Made by a program: the position numbers and the translations under genes. This document shows, one piece after another, positions 17,553 through 23,080 of a stretch of 64,000 nt of DNA (position 1 is its first letter; the number at the start of each line of letters is the position of its first letter). The stretch lies in NCBI GenBank assembly GCA_018820925.1, contig JAHJNJ010000038.1, positions 1 to 64,000 on the forward strand, given 5' to 3'. The notes under the pieces are model-generated. The model did not search any database, was not told the origin of the DNA, and saw only the letters and a list, made by a program, of their open reading frames with translations. Source of the DNA: Gammaproteobacteria bacterium (GTDB lineage: Bacteria; Pseudomonadota; Gammaproteobacteria; Burkholderiales; Gallionellaceae).

Positions 17553-20042
17553 ATGAATAGCAAAGCGACACCGCAACATCGAAATGCGGGTATGAGCAAA
17601 GAGGCGATCGAGGTCGCGCTCGGCGATCACCTGATCTATACCAGCAGCAAATACCACACCGATGCCACCACCCATGACTGGTTCCAGATTACCGCGCTGA
17701 CCGTGCGCGACCGTCTGGTCGAGCGCTGGATGGAAACCATGCAGCGCTATTACGAGCAGGACGCCAGGCGCACGTATTACCTTTCGCTCGAATTCCTGAT
17801 GGGACGCACGCTCAGCAACGCCATGCTCAATCTGGAGATACAGGAGCAATGCAAGACGGCCCTGTACGAACTGGGGCAGGAATTCGAAAAAGTTGCGGAG
17901 ATCGAAGCAGATGCCGCGCTGGGCAACGGCGGTCTCGGGCGTTTGGCGGCCTGTTTCCTCGACTCCATGGCGACGCTTGACCTGCCTTGCTACGGCTACG
18001 GCATCCGCTATGAATACGGCATGTTCCGCCAGAGCATCGAAAACGGCATACAGATGGAACATCCGGACAACTGGTTGCGTTACGGCAATCCGTGGGAGTT
18101 CCCGCGTCCGGAACTGCTCTATCCGGTCAAGTTTTTCGGGCGCGTGGTGGAGTACAAGCACGAGGACGGTCTGGTGCGGCACCACTGGGTGGAAACCGAC
18201 GATGTGATGGCGATGGGCTACGACACGCCGGTTCCCGGTTACGGCGGCAAGACCGTCAACAACATGCGGCTATGGGCGGCCAAATCGTCGCGCGATTTCG
18301 ATTTACGGTATTTCAACCAGGGTAATTACATCCAGGCAGTCGCCGACAAGAACGAATCGGAAAACCTGTCCAAGGTGTTGTACCCGAACGACACCACCGA
18401 GGTGGGACGCGAGCTGCGCCTGAAACAGCAATATTTTTTCGTCAGTGCGTCGTTGCAGGATATGTTGTTCCGTTACAAGAAGAACCACCAGAGCTGGGCA
18501 GAATTGCCGGCCAAACTGGCCGTGCAGTTGAACGACACCCACCCTTCCATTGCCATCGCCGAGATGATGCGCCTGATGGTGGATGTCCATCACCAGACCT
18601 GGGACGAGGCGTGGAGTATGACCACCCGGATATTTTCCTATACCAATCACACGCTGATGCCGGAAGCGCTGGAAACCTGGCCGGTGGCAATGTTCGAGAG
18701 CATGTTGCCGCGCCACCTGCAGATCATCTATGAGATCAACCACCGCTTCTTGCAGCAGGTGATGCATCATTTCCCCGGCGACGGCGAATTGCTGCAGCGC
18801 CTGTCCATCATCGACGAGCGCGGCGGGCGCCGTGTGCGCATGTCGCATCTCGCCATCGTCGGCAGCCATGCGGTGAACGGGGTTGCCGCGTTGCACACCG
18901 AGTTGATGAAACGCACCATATTTGCCGATTTCGAACGCGTCACGCCGGGCAAGATCATCAACATTACCAACGGTGTCACCCCGCGCCGCTGGCTGAACCA
19001 GGCCAACCCTGCCTTGGCCAAACTGATTACGGAACGTATCGGCAAAAGTTGGCTGACCGATCTTGACCAGTTGCGCAAACTGCGTGATTTTGCCGATGAA
19101 AAAACATTTCAGCAGCAGTTCAGCGCCGTCAAGCAAGGTAACAAGGAGTGCCTCGCAGGGTTGATATACACACGGCTTGGAATCGAGGTCGATCCTGCTT
19201 CGCTGTTCGACATTCAAATCAAGCGCATTCACGAGTACAAACGGCAATTACTCAATCTGCTGCACGTCATCACGCTGTATAACCGCATTCGCTGCGGCAC
19301 ACATCCCGACATTGTGCCGCGCACCGTCATCATCGCGGGCAAGGCGGCACCCGGCTATGCGATGGCCAAGCTCATCATCCGGCTCATCAACGATGTTGCC
19401 GACATCGTCAACAACGACCAGCAGGTCGGTGGCAAGCTGAAGCTGGTGTTTATCCCGAATTACGATGTATCCAATGCCGAGCGCATCATTCCGGCGGCCG
19501 ATCTGTCCGAACAGATATCCACAGCCGGGACCGAGGCATCGGGCACGGGAAACATGAAGCTGGCGCTCAACGGGGCGCTCACGATAGGCACGCTGGACGG
19601 CGCGAACGTCGAAATACGCGAAGAAGTGGGTGCGGAGAATTTCTTTCTGTTCGGACTCAACGCCGAGGAAGTGGAGGCAATGCATCGTCAGGGCTACGAT
19701 CCGTTGACTTACTACAACGGCAATGACGAATTGAAGCGGACGCTCTACATGATTTCTTCCGGATTTTTCTGTCCCGACGAGACGACGCGTTACAGTGAAA
19801 TCGTCGATATGCTGCTCAAGCATGGCGACGGTTATTTGTTGCTGGCGGACTACGCTTCCTACGTCGCCTGCCAGGAAAAAGTGGACGAGTTGTATCGCGA
19901 TCCGAAGGAATGGACGAAACGCGCCATCCTCAATGTCGCCGGCATGGGCAGGTTTTCCAGTGATCGCACCATCCGCGAATATGCGGAACGCGTCTGGCAT
20001 GTTGCGCCGATCGAGCCAACGAACAATACGCCCATCCCATGA
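17553..20042 (+). CDS. glgP: Glycogen/maltodextrin phosphorylase
   Basis: Releases glucose-1-phosphate from alpha-1,4-glucans. 829 residues, the normal length. Landmarks are the N-terminal YYLSLEFLMGRTLSNAM, EADAALGNGGLGRLAACFLDS, VQLNDTHPSIA, IKRIHEYKRQ and the pyridoxal-phosphate region with the Schiff-base lysine in ASGTGNMKLALNG. The start at 17553 follows GGGGGGAG; an ATG 12 nt upstream (17541) has no spacer for a ribosome-binding site. glk overlaps the stop (ATGA), so glucan breakdown and glucose phosphorylation are coupled. Confidence 0.97.
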   Translation: MNSKATPQHRNAGMSKEAIEVALGDHLIYTSSKYHTDATTHDWFQITALTVRDRLVERWMETMQRYYEQDARRTYYLSLEFLMGRTLSNAMLNLEIQEQCKTALYELGQEFEKVAEIEADAALGNGGLGRLAACFLDSMATLDLPCYGYGIRYEYGMFRQSIENGIQMEHPDNWLRYGNPWEFPRPELLYPVKFFGRVVEYKHEDGLVRHHWVETDDVMAMGYDTPVPGYGGKTVNNMRLWAAKSSRDFDLRYFNQGNYIQAVADKNESENLSKVLYPNDTTEVGRELRLKQQYFFVSASLQDMLFRYKKNHQSWAELPAKLAVQLNDTHPSIAIAEMMRLMVDVHHQTWDEAWSMTTRIFSYTNHTLMPEALETWPVAMFESMLPRHLQIIYEINHRFLQQVMHHFPGDGELLQRLSIIDERGGRRVRMSHLAIVGSHAVNGVAALHTELMKRTIFADFERVTPGKIINITNGVTPRRWLNQANPALAKLITERIGKSWLTDLDQLRKLRDFADEKTFQQQFSAVKQGNKECLAGLIYTRLGIEVDPASLFDIQIKRIHEYKRQLLNLLHVITLYNRIRCGTHPDIVPRTVIIAGKAAPGYAMAKLIIRLINDVADIVNNDQQVGGKLKLVFIPNYDVSNAERIIPAADLSEQISTAGTEASGTGNMKLALNGALTIGTLDGANVEIREEVGAENFFLFGLNAEEVEAMHRQGYDPLTYYNGNDELKRTLYMISSGFFCPDETTRYSEIVDMLLKHGDGYLLLADYASYVACQEKVDELYRDPKEWTKRAILNVAGMGRFSSDRTIREYAERVWHVAPIEPTNNTPIP

Positions 20043-21019
20043 GCAGGGTTGTCGCGGGCGACATTGGAGGAACCAAGACGCGGCTGGCGGTTGCCGAAGT
20101 CATCGGCAATCAGGTGCGCGTTGAGCGTGAGGTCAGCTATCCCAGCCGCGACTTTGCCACCTTTGAAACCTTGGTGGCGGACTTTCTGGCCGGCGTGCAG
20201 GCCCCTGCCCATGCGGCATTCGGCATTGCCGGGCCGGTTCTGGACGGGGCGGTGCGCACCACCAATCTGCCCTGGTATATCGAAGCCGATGTTTTGCGCC
20301 AACGCTTCGGTTTCCAGTCCTGCACATTGCTCAACGATCTGGAAGCAACCGCTTACGGGCTTCCGGCTTTGGGGAGTGAGGATCTGCTGACCTTGCAGGC
20401 AGGCGAGGCCAATGCAAGCGGTAACGCGGCCATTATCGCTGCCGGTACCGGACTGGGTGAAGCAGGGATGTACTGGGACGGTCACGGGCACCATCCTTAT
20501 GCAACCGAGGGCGGGCACACCGGTTTCAGCCCGCAGTCGGAACTGGAAATCGCATTGTTGCGACACCTGCAATTGCGTTATGAACATGTGAGCTGGGAAC
20601 GTGTGGTTTCCGGCATGGGGCTGGTCAACGTGCACGATTTCTTGCGCGCTTATCGCACAGTTGCAGCGCCGCAATGGCAAACGGATGAGATGCGCGAGAA
20701 CGATACGGCGGCGGTCATTTCACGCGCGGCGCTGGATGGAAAAGACGATATCTGTATCGAAGCGCTGGAGCTCTTTGTGCAGCTTTACGGTGCGGAGGCC
20801 GGCAATCTCGCATTGAAGACCATGAGCCGCGGCGGACTGTATGTGGGCGGCGGCATTGCGCCCAAGATATTGCCGATATTCCAGCGCGGCATCTTCATGC
20901 AGTCCTTCCTGAACAAAGGCCGCATGCGCTCCTTGCTGGAGACCATGCCGGTGCGGGTAATTCTGAACGACCGGGTTGCGTTATACGGCCCTGCACTCTG
21001 CGCTGCCGGTAAGGTCTAA
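20039..21019 (+). CDS. glk: Glucokinase
   Basis: 326-residue hexokinase of the bacterial glucokinase family. It has the N-terminal ATP-binding GDIGGTKTRLA, LLNDLEATAYGL with the catalytic Asp, AGTGLGEAGM, TEGGHTGFSP and GGGIAPKILP. It phosphorylates free glucose left from glycogen and maltodextrin use. Overlaps glgP by 4 nt. Its stop is immediately followed by an NtrC-like dyad and the sigma-54-type promoter of the next region. Confidence 0.96.
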   Translation: MSRVVAGDIGGTKTRLAVAEVIGNQVRVEREVSYPSRDFATFETLVADFLAGVQAPAHAAFGIAGPVLDGAVRTTNLPWYIEADVLRQRFGFQSCTLLNDLEATAYGLPALGSEDLLTLQAGEANASGNAAIIAAGTGLGEAGMYWDGHGHHPYATEGGHTGFSPQSELEIALLRHLQLRYEHVSWERVVSGMGLVNVHDFLRAYRTVAAPQWQTDEMRENDTAAVISRAALDGKDDICIEALELFVQLYGAEAGNLALKTMSRGGLYVGGGIAPKILPIFQRGIFMQSFLNKGRMRSLLETMPVRVILNDRVALYGPALCAAGKV

Positions 21020-21036
21020 TGCGCAGCATTGGTGCA
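21020..21036. promoter_or_regulatory. NtrC-like binding site (weak)
   Basis: TGCGCAGCATTGGTGCA has the 17-nt frame of the NtrC consensus TGCACYA-N3-TGGTGCA. The right half is perfect and the left half matches 4 of 7. It is about 100 bp upstream of the sigma-54-type promoter, a normal enhancer distance. A further TGGTGCG half-site lies at 21069-21075. Confidence 0.25.
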
Positions 21037-21120
21037 TCTGCGACATTGGGGTGCGCGATTGATCCTGGTGGTGCGACATGCAGAAATCCACAATCCTTTC
21101 CAAATCAACATCATTCCGGG

Positions 21121-21137
21121 CTGGCATGACGCTTGCT
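21121..21137 (+). promoter_or_regulatory. Sigma-54 (RpoN) promoter
   Basis: CTGGCATGACGCTTGCT matches YTGGCACG-N4-TTGCW with one mismatch (T for C in the -24 box). The invariant GG and GC doublets are correctly spaced. Predicted start is near 21148. Downstream come a short C-rich stretch and a terminator at 21206-21235, then the ABC exporter. Confidence 0.55.
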
Positions 21138-21147
21138 GAATAGCTGG

Positions 21148-21235
21148 TGAGAGCGGTTCCGGTTCCCTCCCCTTACCTCCCGCTTTCTTGTTTCTCCTCC
21201 TCTTCCGGGCATCTTCGCAGATGCCCGTTTTTTTT
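21148..21235 (+). ncRNA. Candidate sigma-54-dependent small RNA or attenuated leader
   Basis: No ORF with a ribosome-binding site is seen. The span runs from the predicted sigma-54 start to the end of a strong terminator, about 88 nt. Its unpaired part is pyrimidine-rich with three CCTCC motifs (21166-21170, 21176-21180, 21196-21200), the complement of the Shine-Dalgarno sequence, as in many trans-acting sRNAs. Alternatively it is the 5' leader of the ABC exporter, with the terminator acting as an attenuator 18 nt before its ATG. Confidence 0.4.
21206..21235 (+). terminator. Strong intrinsic terminator upstream of the ABC exporter
   Basis: CGGGCATC / GATGCCCG stem of 8 bp, 6-nt loop and eight consecutive T. 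Lies 186 nt after the glk stop and 18 nt before the next start codon. It could end glk transcription, an sRNA, or attenuate the downstream gene. Confidence 0.85.
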
Positions 21236-21253: not shown

Positions 21254-23080
21254 ATGGCAACGGCTATAATACGACCCGTCAAAAAATTCGATGCCCCGAT
21301 GAAGAATCACTATTCGCACACTCCTTCCGCCCCAACCCGTACCGATTGGCGTGTTATCCGCAGTTTGACGCCCTATTTGCTGGAGTTCAAAGTCCGCGTG
21401 GTCGCGGTGATCGTGCTTCTGGTGCTGGCCAAGCTTACCAACGTGGCGGTGCCGCTTGTGCTCAAGGAGATCGTGGATGCGATGGGCAAGCCGCAGGCGA
21501 TGCTCACGATCCCGGTGTTCCTGATTGTCGGCTACGGACTGCTGCGTTTGTTCAGCACCCTGTTTGGCGAGTTGCGCGACGCGCTGTTCGCCAAGGTCAC
21601 GCAGCGCGCGATCCGCCGTGTGGCATTGCAGGTGTTCGAGCACCTGCACAGCCTGAGTCTGCGTTTTCATCTGGAGCGGCAGACCGGCGGTGTGTCGCGC
21701 GATATCGAGCGCGGCACGCGCGGCATCAGCTTTTTGCTCACCTTCCTGTTGTTCAACATCCTGCCGACCCTGCTGGAGATCGGGCTGGTGGCGGCCATCC
21801 TCTTTGTCAAATACAACCCGTGGTTTGCCATCATCACCTTTGCCACGCTCGTGCTCTACATCATCTTCACGCTGGTCATCACCGAATGGCGCATGGTGTT
21901 TCGCCGCACCATGAATGAAATGGATTCCAAAGCCAACACGCGCGCCATCGACAGTCTGATCAATTACGAAACGGTGAAATACTTCGGCAACGAAAAATAC
22001 GAAGTGCAGCGTTACGATGACCAGATGCTGCGCTGGGAAGTCTCGGCGGTGCGCAACCAGACCTCGTTGGCGACGCTCAATGCGGGCCAGAGCGTCATCA
22101 TTGCCATCGGTGTGACGCTGCTCATGCTGCTGGCTGCGGACGGGGTCATGAAGGGCACGATGACCATCGGCGACCTGGTGCTGGTTAACGTGTACATGTT
22201 GCAGCTTTACATGCCATTGCATTTCCTGGGCTTCGTCTACCGCGAGATCAAGAACGCATTGGCCGACATGGAAAGAATGTTCCGCCTGCTGGACGAAAGC
22301 CGCGAAGTGCAGGATGCGCCGGATGCGCAACCGCTCAAGCTGAACGGCGCCGCAGTTCGTTTCGAACACGTCAGTTTTTCCTACGATCCGGCGCGCGAGA
22401 TATTGCCGGACGTGAGTTTTGACATTCCTCCCGGGCACACGCTGGCGGTGGTGGGTGCGAGCGGTGCGGGCAAGTCCACCTTGTCGCGGCTGCTGTTCCG
22501 CTTCTACGACGTGAATTCGGGCAGTATTTCCATCGACGGGCAGGATATCCGCAGCGTAACGCAAGCCAGTTTGCGCGCTGCCATCGGCATCGTGCCGCAG
22601 GATACGGTGCTGTTCAACGACACAATCTATTACAACATCGGCTATGGCCGTCCCGACGCGACACGCGAGGAGGTGATTGCGGCGGCACAAGCGGCGCATA
22701 TCCATACCTTCATCGAGTCTTTGCCCCAGGGCTACGATTCCCTGGTAGGCGAACGCGGCCTGAAACTGTCCGGCGGCGAAAAGCAGCGCGTGGCGATTGC
22801 GCGGGCAATTCTAAAGAATCCGGCAATCTTGATCTTTGACGAAGCCACCTCGGCGCTGGATTCCAAGTCGGAAAAAGCCATTCAGGACGAATTGCGCAGC
22901 ATCGCGCAGAACCGCACCACGCTGGTGATTGCGCACCGTTTGTCGACTGTCGTTGACGCCCATCAGATTCTGGTATTGGACAAAGGCCGTATTATCGAGC
23001 GTGGAACGCATCGTAACTTGTTGGAAAAAAAGGGAATGTACTCGCAAATGTGGGCTTTGCAGCAGCAGGAAGAACATTAA
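21254..23080 (+). CDS. Atm1-type ABC exporter (fused permease and ATPase)
   Basis: 608-residue half-transporter: six membrane helices (roughly residues 40-330) then an ATPase domain with Walker A GASGAGKST, Q-loop VPQDTVLFND, signature LSGGEKQR and Walker B ILIFDEATSALD. The YETVKYFGNEKYE and NAGQSVII stretches in the membrane domain are typical of the Atm1/HMT1 heavy-metal and glutathione-conjugate exporters. The ATG at 21254 has GGAAAGGAAAG upstream; ATG 21188 would run through the terminator hairpin and is rejected. Confidence 0.9.
   Translation: MATAIIRPVKKFDAPMKNHYSHTPSAPTRTDWRVIRSLTPYLLEFKVRVVAVIVLLVLAKLTNVAVPLVLKEIVDAMGKPQAMLTIPVFLIVGYGLLRLFSTLFGELRDALFAKVTQRAIRRVALQVFEHLHSLSLRFHLERQTGGVSRDIERGTRGISFLLTFLLFNILPTLLEIGLVAAILFVKYNPWFAIITFATLVLYIIFTLVITEWRMVFRRTMNEMDSKANTRAIDSLINYETVKYFGNEKYEVQRYDDQMLRWEVSAVRNQTSLATLNAGQSVIIAIGVTLLMLLAADGVMKGTMTIGDLVLVNVYMLQLYMPLHFLGFVYREIKNALADMERMFRLLDESREVQDAPDAQPLKLNGAAVRFEHVSFSYDPAREILPDVSFDIPPGHTLAVVGASGAGKSTLSRLLFRFYDVNSGSISIDGQDIRSVTQASLRAAIGIVPQDTVLFNDTIYYNIGYGRPDATREEVIAAAQAAHIHTFIESLPQGYDSLVGERGLKLSGGEKQRVAIARAILKNPAILIFDEATSALDSKSEKAIQDELRSIAQNRTTLVIAHRLSTVVDAHQILVLDKGRIIERGTHRNLLEKKGMYSQMWALQQQEEH

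Follow-up and report, generated by a model that had tools for sequence, protein, structure and literature searches.

The region between glk and an ABC exporter gene

The DNA analysed here, referred to as the window, is a stretch of 64,000 nucleotides from a member of the Gallionellaceae whose genome is 3.44 Mb in size. A predicted small RNA (sRNA) locus lies in the window between the glucokinase gene glk and a gene for an ABC exporter. The features are as follows.

20039-21019, + strand: glk (glucokinase), upstream neighbour of the sRNA locus; PF02685, and TIGR00749 above cut-off
21020-21036, no strand assigned: distal NtrC-like dyad TGCGCAGCATTGGTGCA, candidate enhancer site 1; 10 of 12 consensus letters, start at -128
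21039-21055, no strand assigned: proximal NtrC-like dyad TGCGACATTGGGGTGCG, candidate enhancer site 2; 9 of 12 consensus letters, start at -109
21103-21108, + strand: AATCAA box, its 3' end 14 bp before the sigma-54 element; invariant in 13/13 aligned loci
21122-21137, + strand: sigma-54 promoter TGGCATG-ACGC-TTGCT (TGGCATGACGCTTGCT); one mismatch to the consensus
21148-21235, + strand: predicted sRNA of 88 nt, its start deduced from the promoter
21149-21187, + strand: predicted 5' hairpin with a C-rich loop (21149-21156 pairs with 21180-21187)
21188-21205, + strand: linker predicted to be unpaired, between the 5' hairpin and the terminator, with a conserved anti-Shine-Dalgarno (anti-SD) core (UCUCCUCC from 21193)
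21206-21235, + strand: intrinsic terminator; stem 21206-21227 with 9 pairs (6 G-C), 4-nt loop, eight T
21265-21270, + strand: TATAAT, -10-like, between the terminator and the ABC exporter gene
21299-23080, + strand: ABC exporter gene, downstream neighbour; PF00664 and PF00005

No NCBIfam model was above its cut-off among the 25 matches listed for the exporter gene at 21299-23080. At the Rfam gathering thresholds the sole match in the window is a bacterial small SRP RNA (RF00169; 53968-54066, 78.5 bits), and no family matches the sRNA itself at E<=1.

The -24/-12 consensus of sigma-54 promoters is TGGCACG-N4-TTGCW. The element at 21122-21137 has GG at -24 and GC at -12 at exactly the right spacing, which bears out the original prediction of a -24/-12 element with one mismatch. 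The predicted +1, at 21148, is derived from the position of this element.

The 88-nt transcript has a predicted folding energy of -28.9 kcal/mol (z -5.55), and none of 200 shuffled sequences was as stable. The predicted fold makes up 0.70 of the ensemble and no rival antiterminator structure was seen. Its 5' hairpin is predicted to begin at +1 or +2 in 13/13 loci (+2 in the window), and 92.3% of the alignment cells in the helix are paired, with changes that are mostly one-sided. A guessed inner helix of this hairpin proved wrong (13.5% paired). The covariation score is weak and does not go beyond the shuffles, being equalled by 111 of 500. The case for the structure is one of consistency and energy rather than of covariation.

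The UCUCCU core of the linker has a predicted unpaired probability of 0.96-1.0 in 13/13 sequences, and a conserved, unpaired, CU-rich stretch complementary to the SD sequence is what is expected of an anti-SD sRNA. Three CCTCC motifs had been noted before and all three are present in the window (at 21166, 21176 and 21196), but only the third, in the linker, is kept across relatives. The non-linker CCUCC copies come and go, so the idea of three equal anti-SD motifs was rejected and the three reduce to one conserved seed. The eight T of the terminator are as first described, whereas the stem has nine pairs, not eight. The transcript was also correctly thought to lack a translatable ORF: there is no ATG or GTG ORF with its own stop, and the plus-strand starts at 21188 (TTG) and 21221 (ATG) are in frame with the ABC exporter gene and read on into it.

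Conservation of the promoter and the RNA

A DNA search of 61 genomes (the window's own and 60 others) gave a match of any kind in 26. The match extends from roughly the -24 box as far as the terminator in 13 of the 61, among them the own genome, and lies mainly at the terminator hairpin in 13 others. Conservation of the terminator only, which would have spoken against the original prediction, is therefore not what is seen. All 13 long matches fall within one genus (34 genomes including our own). Across these 13 loci conservation spans the tandem dyads through to the terminator, and little or no variation is seen in parts of two GTGC-type dyads, in AATCAA, in TGGCA-G-N4-TTGC, in the feet of the hairpin, in UCUCCU-CU and in the terminator.

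A covariance model of the transcript only (R1) was built with the 13 loci as seeds. At E<=0.01 it has matches in 105 of the family's 158 genomes and in 41 of an order-wide sample of 399. We then searched R1 in 74 loci, made up of the search returns and 20 picked stretches (19 R1 matches and one pattern match) chosen before their promoters were looked at, with weaker matches left out. This gave 86 matches. Setting aside the 13 seeds, and 12 low-scoring and mostly partial matches (E 0.0073-0.044), left 61 for analysis; match-by-match inspection covered 65 of the 74 retained matches, nine seeds not being repeated. In 29 of the 61 non-seed matches a sigma-54 site, mismatched at one position at most, starts between -31 and -24 (18 at -27 and 8 at -26), compared with 0.009 expected by chance from the background rate elsewhere in the same loci, although many of the 29 loci are orthologues of one another and the number of independent cases is therefore smaller. 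As the promoter is absent from R1, this ties sigma-54 to the RNA, and the pair is also found elsewhere, at further loci and in further families. The remaining 32 matches have no sigma-54 site; some belong to a second class of RNA (see below) and the weakest look like chance matches.

The R1 carriers comprise the exporter-linked locus, two paralogues (A and B), and members in families f13 and f48; family f37 has a short form of the RNA of 58 nt. Paralogue A is a predicted sigma-54 sRNA found at seven loci (L106, L107, L108, L109, L110, L113 and L069), where the gene for IHF-beta starts 5-20 nt after the RNA and there is no TATAAT within 130 nt after it. The downstream gene was identified by PF00216 and by NF001222, which is above cut-off in both proteins tested. 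What we take to be an IHF-like box (YAANNNNTTGATW) can be made out in groups A, B and C, including paralogue A's own promoter, and is unclear in the window. For the window we infer at most that the AATCAA box may have such a role, for example in binding IHF, as the IHF consensus is incompletely matched there. The pairing of paralogue A with the IHF-beta gene could possibly reflect a loop between nitrogen control and IHF, or a true leader. One of these loci in a relative also contains a c-di-GMP-I-GGC riboswitch (RF03167; L107:3824-3926, 61.1 bits).

Paralogue B, also a predicted sigma-54 sRNA, is found at L076, L078 and L079 beside a proteasome-like gene, named by reading, which is presumably Anbu-like and gave no Pfam or NCBIfam match at 1e-5. 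At two of the three loci a cyclic-nucleotide-binding-like gene lies 55-58 nt downstream, a weak assignment (26.5 bits against a cut-off of 27.5). In addition, L067 (G077:C1:592550-592828) has two tandem copies of the sRNA upstream of an exporter gene, one with a sigma-54 site with two mismatches and the other with a decayed site.

The second class of RNA, also found by R1, has the same CUUUCAUACUCUCCUCCU core without a sigma-54 site. Its -10 element resembles TACAAT, and a ATATAGGCC...GGCATATAT dyad is conserved upstream. There is a copy with a CUCCUCCU core in the host genome outside the window (G000:C50:12317-12398; L114:2018-2099), adjoining prmC-like and argH-like genes (named by reading), and at least seven other loci share this layout. 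It seems that one seed is used under two controls.

A further model (R2) included the promoter, with a hairpin there that RNAalifold had wrongly predicted. At E<=0.001 it matches 41 of 399 genomes of the order, which are spread over ten families and 14 of 158 genera. Class-wide it matches 7 of 369 genomes including our own, the other six weakly (38.6-47.6 bits). Most of 23 R2 loci have a sigma-54 site, hairpin, CCUCC-type linker and terminator, and a few of the weakest (e.g. L295 and L298) have poor linkers; the expression used to place the sites itself requires GG/GC, and one of the 23 (L286) could not be placed. Because the promoter is part of R2 and its structure is partly false, these matches are treated as leads only. 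Outside the order, L294, L296 and L299 (families f177 and f157) are weak matches, yet each has a sigma-54 site, hairpin, ACUCCUCC linker and terminator. These may be convergent or distant kin.

Tandem dyads and the ammonium-transporter-family promoters of the same genomes

The NtrC dyad consensus is TGCACC-N5-GGTGCA. One NtrC-like dyad about 100 bp upstream had been proposed; a dyad is indeed present, but there are two, starting at -128 and -109. Across the 13 seed loci the best distal dyad lies at -125 to -135, and the spacing from dyad to dyad is 19 bp in the window and 20 bp in 11 of the 12 other seeds. Tandem dyads are present at P<=0.05 (summed best scores against dinucleotide shuffles) in 36 of 42 sigma-54 loci, or 24 of 29 non-seed loci, in two score windows that were fixed after prior inspection of the loci. 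The loci with no significant tandem pair in these fixed windows are L065, L066, L070, L086, L107 and L111. The two dyads are mostly 19-21 bp apart in the main group and in groups A and B, and mostly 30-32 bp apart in f13 and L087. Values near 20 or 30 bp come up again in several families.

Single dyads are common in the host genome (261 places with up to two mismatches, 65 in a backward control), and since the backward control differs in make-up these genome-wide counts are uninformative. One of 15 fetched dyad loci had a sigma-54 site nearby by the filter used.

As a yardstick we chose the ammonium-transporter-family genes of ten genomes, comparing their promoters without a shuffle control. 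The second gene of this family, which scores 306-318 bits and thus lies below the TIGR00836 cut-off of 343.3, has a sigma-54 site at a near-fixed distance in 10/10 genomes (at most one mismatch in nine, two mismatches in G077). Dyads at -135/-136 and -106 are among the three best in all ten of these promoters. The first gene, above the TIGR00836 cut-off in nine genomes, has a weaker sigma-54-like site with two mismatches, and its dyads lie at -119 and -106 in the four genomes with the full upstream region (G000, G030, G013 and G006); in five others the promoter either ran past the edge of the locus or had no site, and the comparison did not include L264. NtrC itself is above its curated cut-off in 145 of 158 genomes of the family and scores 703.9 bits in the host genome.

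The sRNA locus thus has the tandem TGCACC-N5-GGTGCA-like sites about 100-140 bp upstream that are expected of an NtrC promoter, with the limit that the second yardstick gene falls below its family cut-off. Because the ammonium-transporter-family promoters have the same dyad layout, the sRNA promoter resembles a nitrogen promoter of the same cells. This shared layout strongly suggests nitrogen control of the sRNA.

Target searches, related RNAs and probable biological role

Searches for complementary sites established no mRNA target; among the places inspected, few start codons have a long exact complement and none of these recurs widely among carriers. With up to two mismatches, AGGAGGAGANACATGAAAG occurs at 19 places in 35 genomes, of which 11 are sRNA genes. 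In the 34 genomes of the genus ACAGGAGGAGA occurs at 36 places, of which 30 were inspected, and for AGGAGGAGA-N1-8-ATG 40 listed places were inspected, with sRNA genes making up many of the remainder. The start of a TRAP-permease-like gene was matched in G005, G015 and G033 by ACAGGAGGAGA and in G032 by AGGAGGAGA-N1-8-ATG. This dctM-like start has a AGGAGGAGAAACAATG-type site in four genomes of the same genus (L131, L136, L149 and L244), and no main-type sRNA is among the R1 matches listed for the four TRAP-permease-start genomes; it may pair with the second-class RNA. Starts repeated among sRNA carriers are those of a TetR-like gene (G006 and G013) and a PilJ-like gene (G010 and G028), and the host genome gave matches at dapB-like, hydrogenase-maturation-protease-like and 49-aa ORF starts, all named by reading. 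Four NtrB starts showed no strong pairing with the sRNA (only G018 of the four genomes is a main-type carrier), and the search pattern for PII returned nothing.

NrsZ of Pseudomonas and Qrr of Vibrio are sRNAs transcribed from sigma-54 promoters, NrsZ being nitrogen-controlled, and both differ from the window RNA in length and layout. Neither family was matched in the Rfam search, in agreement with the view that the RNA is not recognisably either of them. MmgR/NfeR1 and RF02278/S17 are closer comparisons. According to two papers, MmgR/alpha-r8 (RF00519, suhB) of Sinorhizobium meliloti is a 77-nt, Hfq-dependent, trans-acting sRNA with an anti-SD motif, under positive control by NtrC and nitrogen source (PMC8401924, PMC7143759), and one table lists it with both RpoD and RpoN (PMC7143759). 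In contrast with the window RNA, it is alphaproteobacterial, is described as controlled through a dyad between -35 and -10, and has its anti-SD motif in the first loop rather than in the linker. NfeR1/alpha-r14 of the same species is likewise presented as a nitrogen-stress sRNA with several copies and three CCUCCUCCC anti-SD motifs, acting at translation starts (PMC10746234, PMC7143759). It differs in having a promoter described as sigma-70, activated by LsrB and repressed by NtrC.

Like the window RNA, the RF02278 double-hairpin or toxic sRNAs of Burkholderia cenocepacia (ncS03/05/27/62) are betaproteobacterial and exist in several copies, with a pair of hairpins and a CU-rich stretch of the anti-RBS kind. 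Their promoters are described as mostly uncharacterised; a motif upstream is common to three of the RNAs (PMC5688073). S17 of Bordetella pertussis, also betaproteobacterial, is reported as an Hfq-bound sRNA whose sites should disrupt ribosome binding, but it differs in being processed from a 190-nt precursor to about 67 nt, in its sigma-A promoter, and in repressing a sigma-54 activator (PMC11722255). Four RF02278 RNAs are listed in a survey of Herbaspirillum, the main text of which mentions neither NtrC nor RpoN.

The shared hairpins and CU-rich stretch raise the question of whether the RNA is a diverged member of RF02278, a family to which S17 has been likened, rather than a family of its own. 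RF02278 does appear below threshold in one f13 member (24.9 bits), and the motif upstream of three of the Burkholderia RNAs could be a further likeness. Against this, the gathering cut-off of 50 is not reached, and the family gives no match at E<=1 in the window locus or at E<=0.5 in nine further loci, where Rfam as a whole returned nothing; S17, as described, has a sigma-A promoter and is processed. RF00519 similarly gives no match to the window sRNA at E<=1 and remains below its cut-off of 41 in two divergent members (26.0 bits in L086, and 24.9 bits). Membership of either family was rejected at these cut-offs, and a diverged RF02278 origin is in our view quite improbable. A small protein gene on either strand is far less probable still. 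On the minus strand AGGAGGAGAAACATGAAAG resembles an SD sequence and start, but CATGAAAG is kept in only 6 of 13 loci and is absent from the window; on the plus strand an ATG near +36 occurs in 10 of 13 loci, and the frame has no stop inside the transcript in the ATG cases listed. A small ORF was therefore rejected.

It is harder to separate an independent sRNA from a sigma-54-driven leader with an attenuator for the downstream gene (the ABC exporter, or other genes at the paralogues), or from an RNA that does both. A TATAAT follows the RNA within 110 nt in 18/18 exporter loci of family f1, whereas none follows the terminator in the six f13 loci examined. Of 31 further loci, 14 have the exporter downstream in the same orientation, among them 7/7 in f13, but none was found downstream in the other 17, the downstream gene varies, and at L066 and L068 it is oriented oppositely. 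The anti-SD linker is retained whichever gene lies downstream, and the absence of a rival antiterminator structure also argues against attenuation. As the IHF-beta gene directly follows paralogue A, the leader gains weight and the independent sRNA loses some; the cyclic-nucleotide-binding-like gene after paralogue B points the same way. The earlier competing view of an attenuated leader of the exporter, then labelled Atm1-type, is weakened for the window, although paralogue A keeps it in play. On balance a leader is unlikely here and we take the window RNA as an independent sRNA, while copies elsewhere may act as both. It is similarly doubtful that an enhancer-binding protein other than NtrC activates this putatively sigma-54-dependent RNA. 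Each genome has several TIGR01818-like activators listed, the dyads deviate from a perfect palindrome, and the six loci named above have no significant tandem pair; but dyads of the same consensus lie at similar positions at ammonium-transporter-family promoters of the same genomes, and several families share a dyad spacing near 20 or 30 bp.

The nitrogen-controlled sRNA of the original prediction remains the best reading, given the joint conservation of promoter and RNA and the dyad layout common to the ammonium-transporter-family promoters. The observation itself is right and non-random and the sRNA reading is well supported. We put at roughly 0.75 the probability that the RNA represents a new family of anti-SD, trans-acting sRNAs driven by sigma-54 and probably by NtrC. 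From sequence data we infer transcription, activation by NtrC and action by pairing. Under nitrogen limitation, phosphorylated NtrC (NtrC-P) would bind both dyads, some 128 and 109 bp upstream, and activate sigma-54 RNA polymerase at 21122-21137. An RNA of about 88 nt would be made, ending at the intrinsic terminator, and its exposed CUCCUCC linker, between the 5' and terminator hairpins, would pair with AGGAGG-type ribosome-binding sites and lower the translation of selected mRNAs. Blocking of ribosome sites is suggested because the seed is exposed and conserved, and by analogy with MmgR, NfeR1, the RF02278 RNAs and S17. The RNA would then probably reduce the synthesis of certain proteins when nitrogen is scarce.

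Searches of the open-access literature yielded no sigma-54/NtrC-driven anti-SD sRNA in betaproteobacteria and none linking nitrogen status to translation through such a promoter. More tentatively, the RNAs may form an undescribed class of sigma-54/NtrC-activated anti-SD sRNAs spread through the order, with model matches in ten of the sampled families, and perhaps beyond it. Sibling copies would be frequent, and during nitrogen starvation the class would curb, on a global scale, the mRNAs whose ribosome sites are strong. This would be a betaproteobacterial counterpart of MmgR/NfeR1 on a canonical NtrC enhancer, with one copy also placed directly before the IHF-beta gene. A family whose promoter, enhancer and seed are all defined lends itself to tests in cultured relatives. 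It also suggests that the anti-SD sRNA design is used under nitrogen control in more than one class of proteobacteria.
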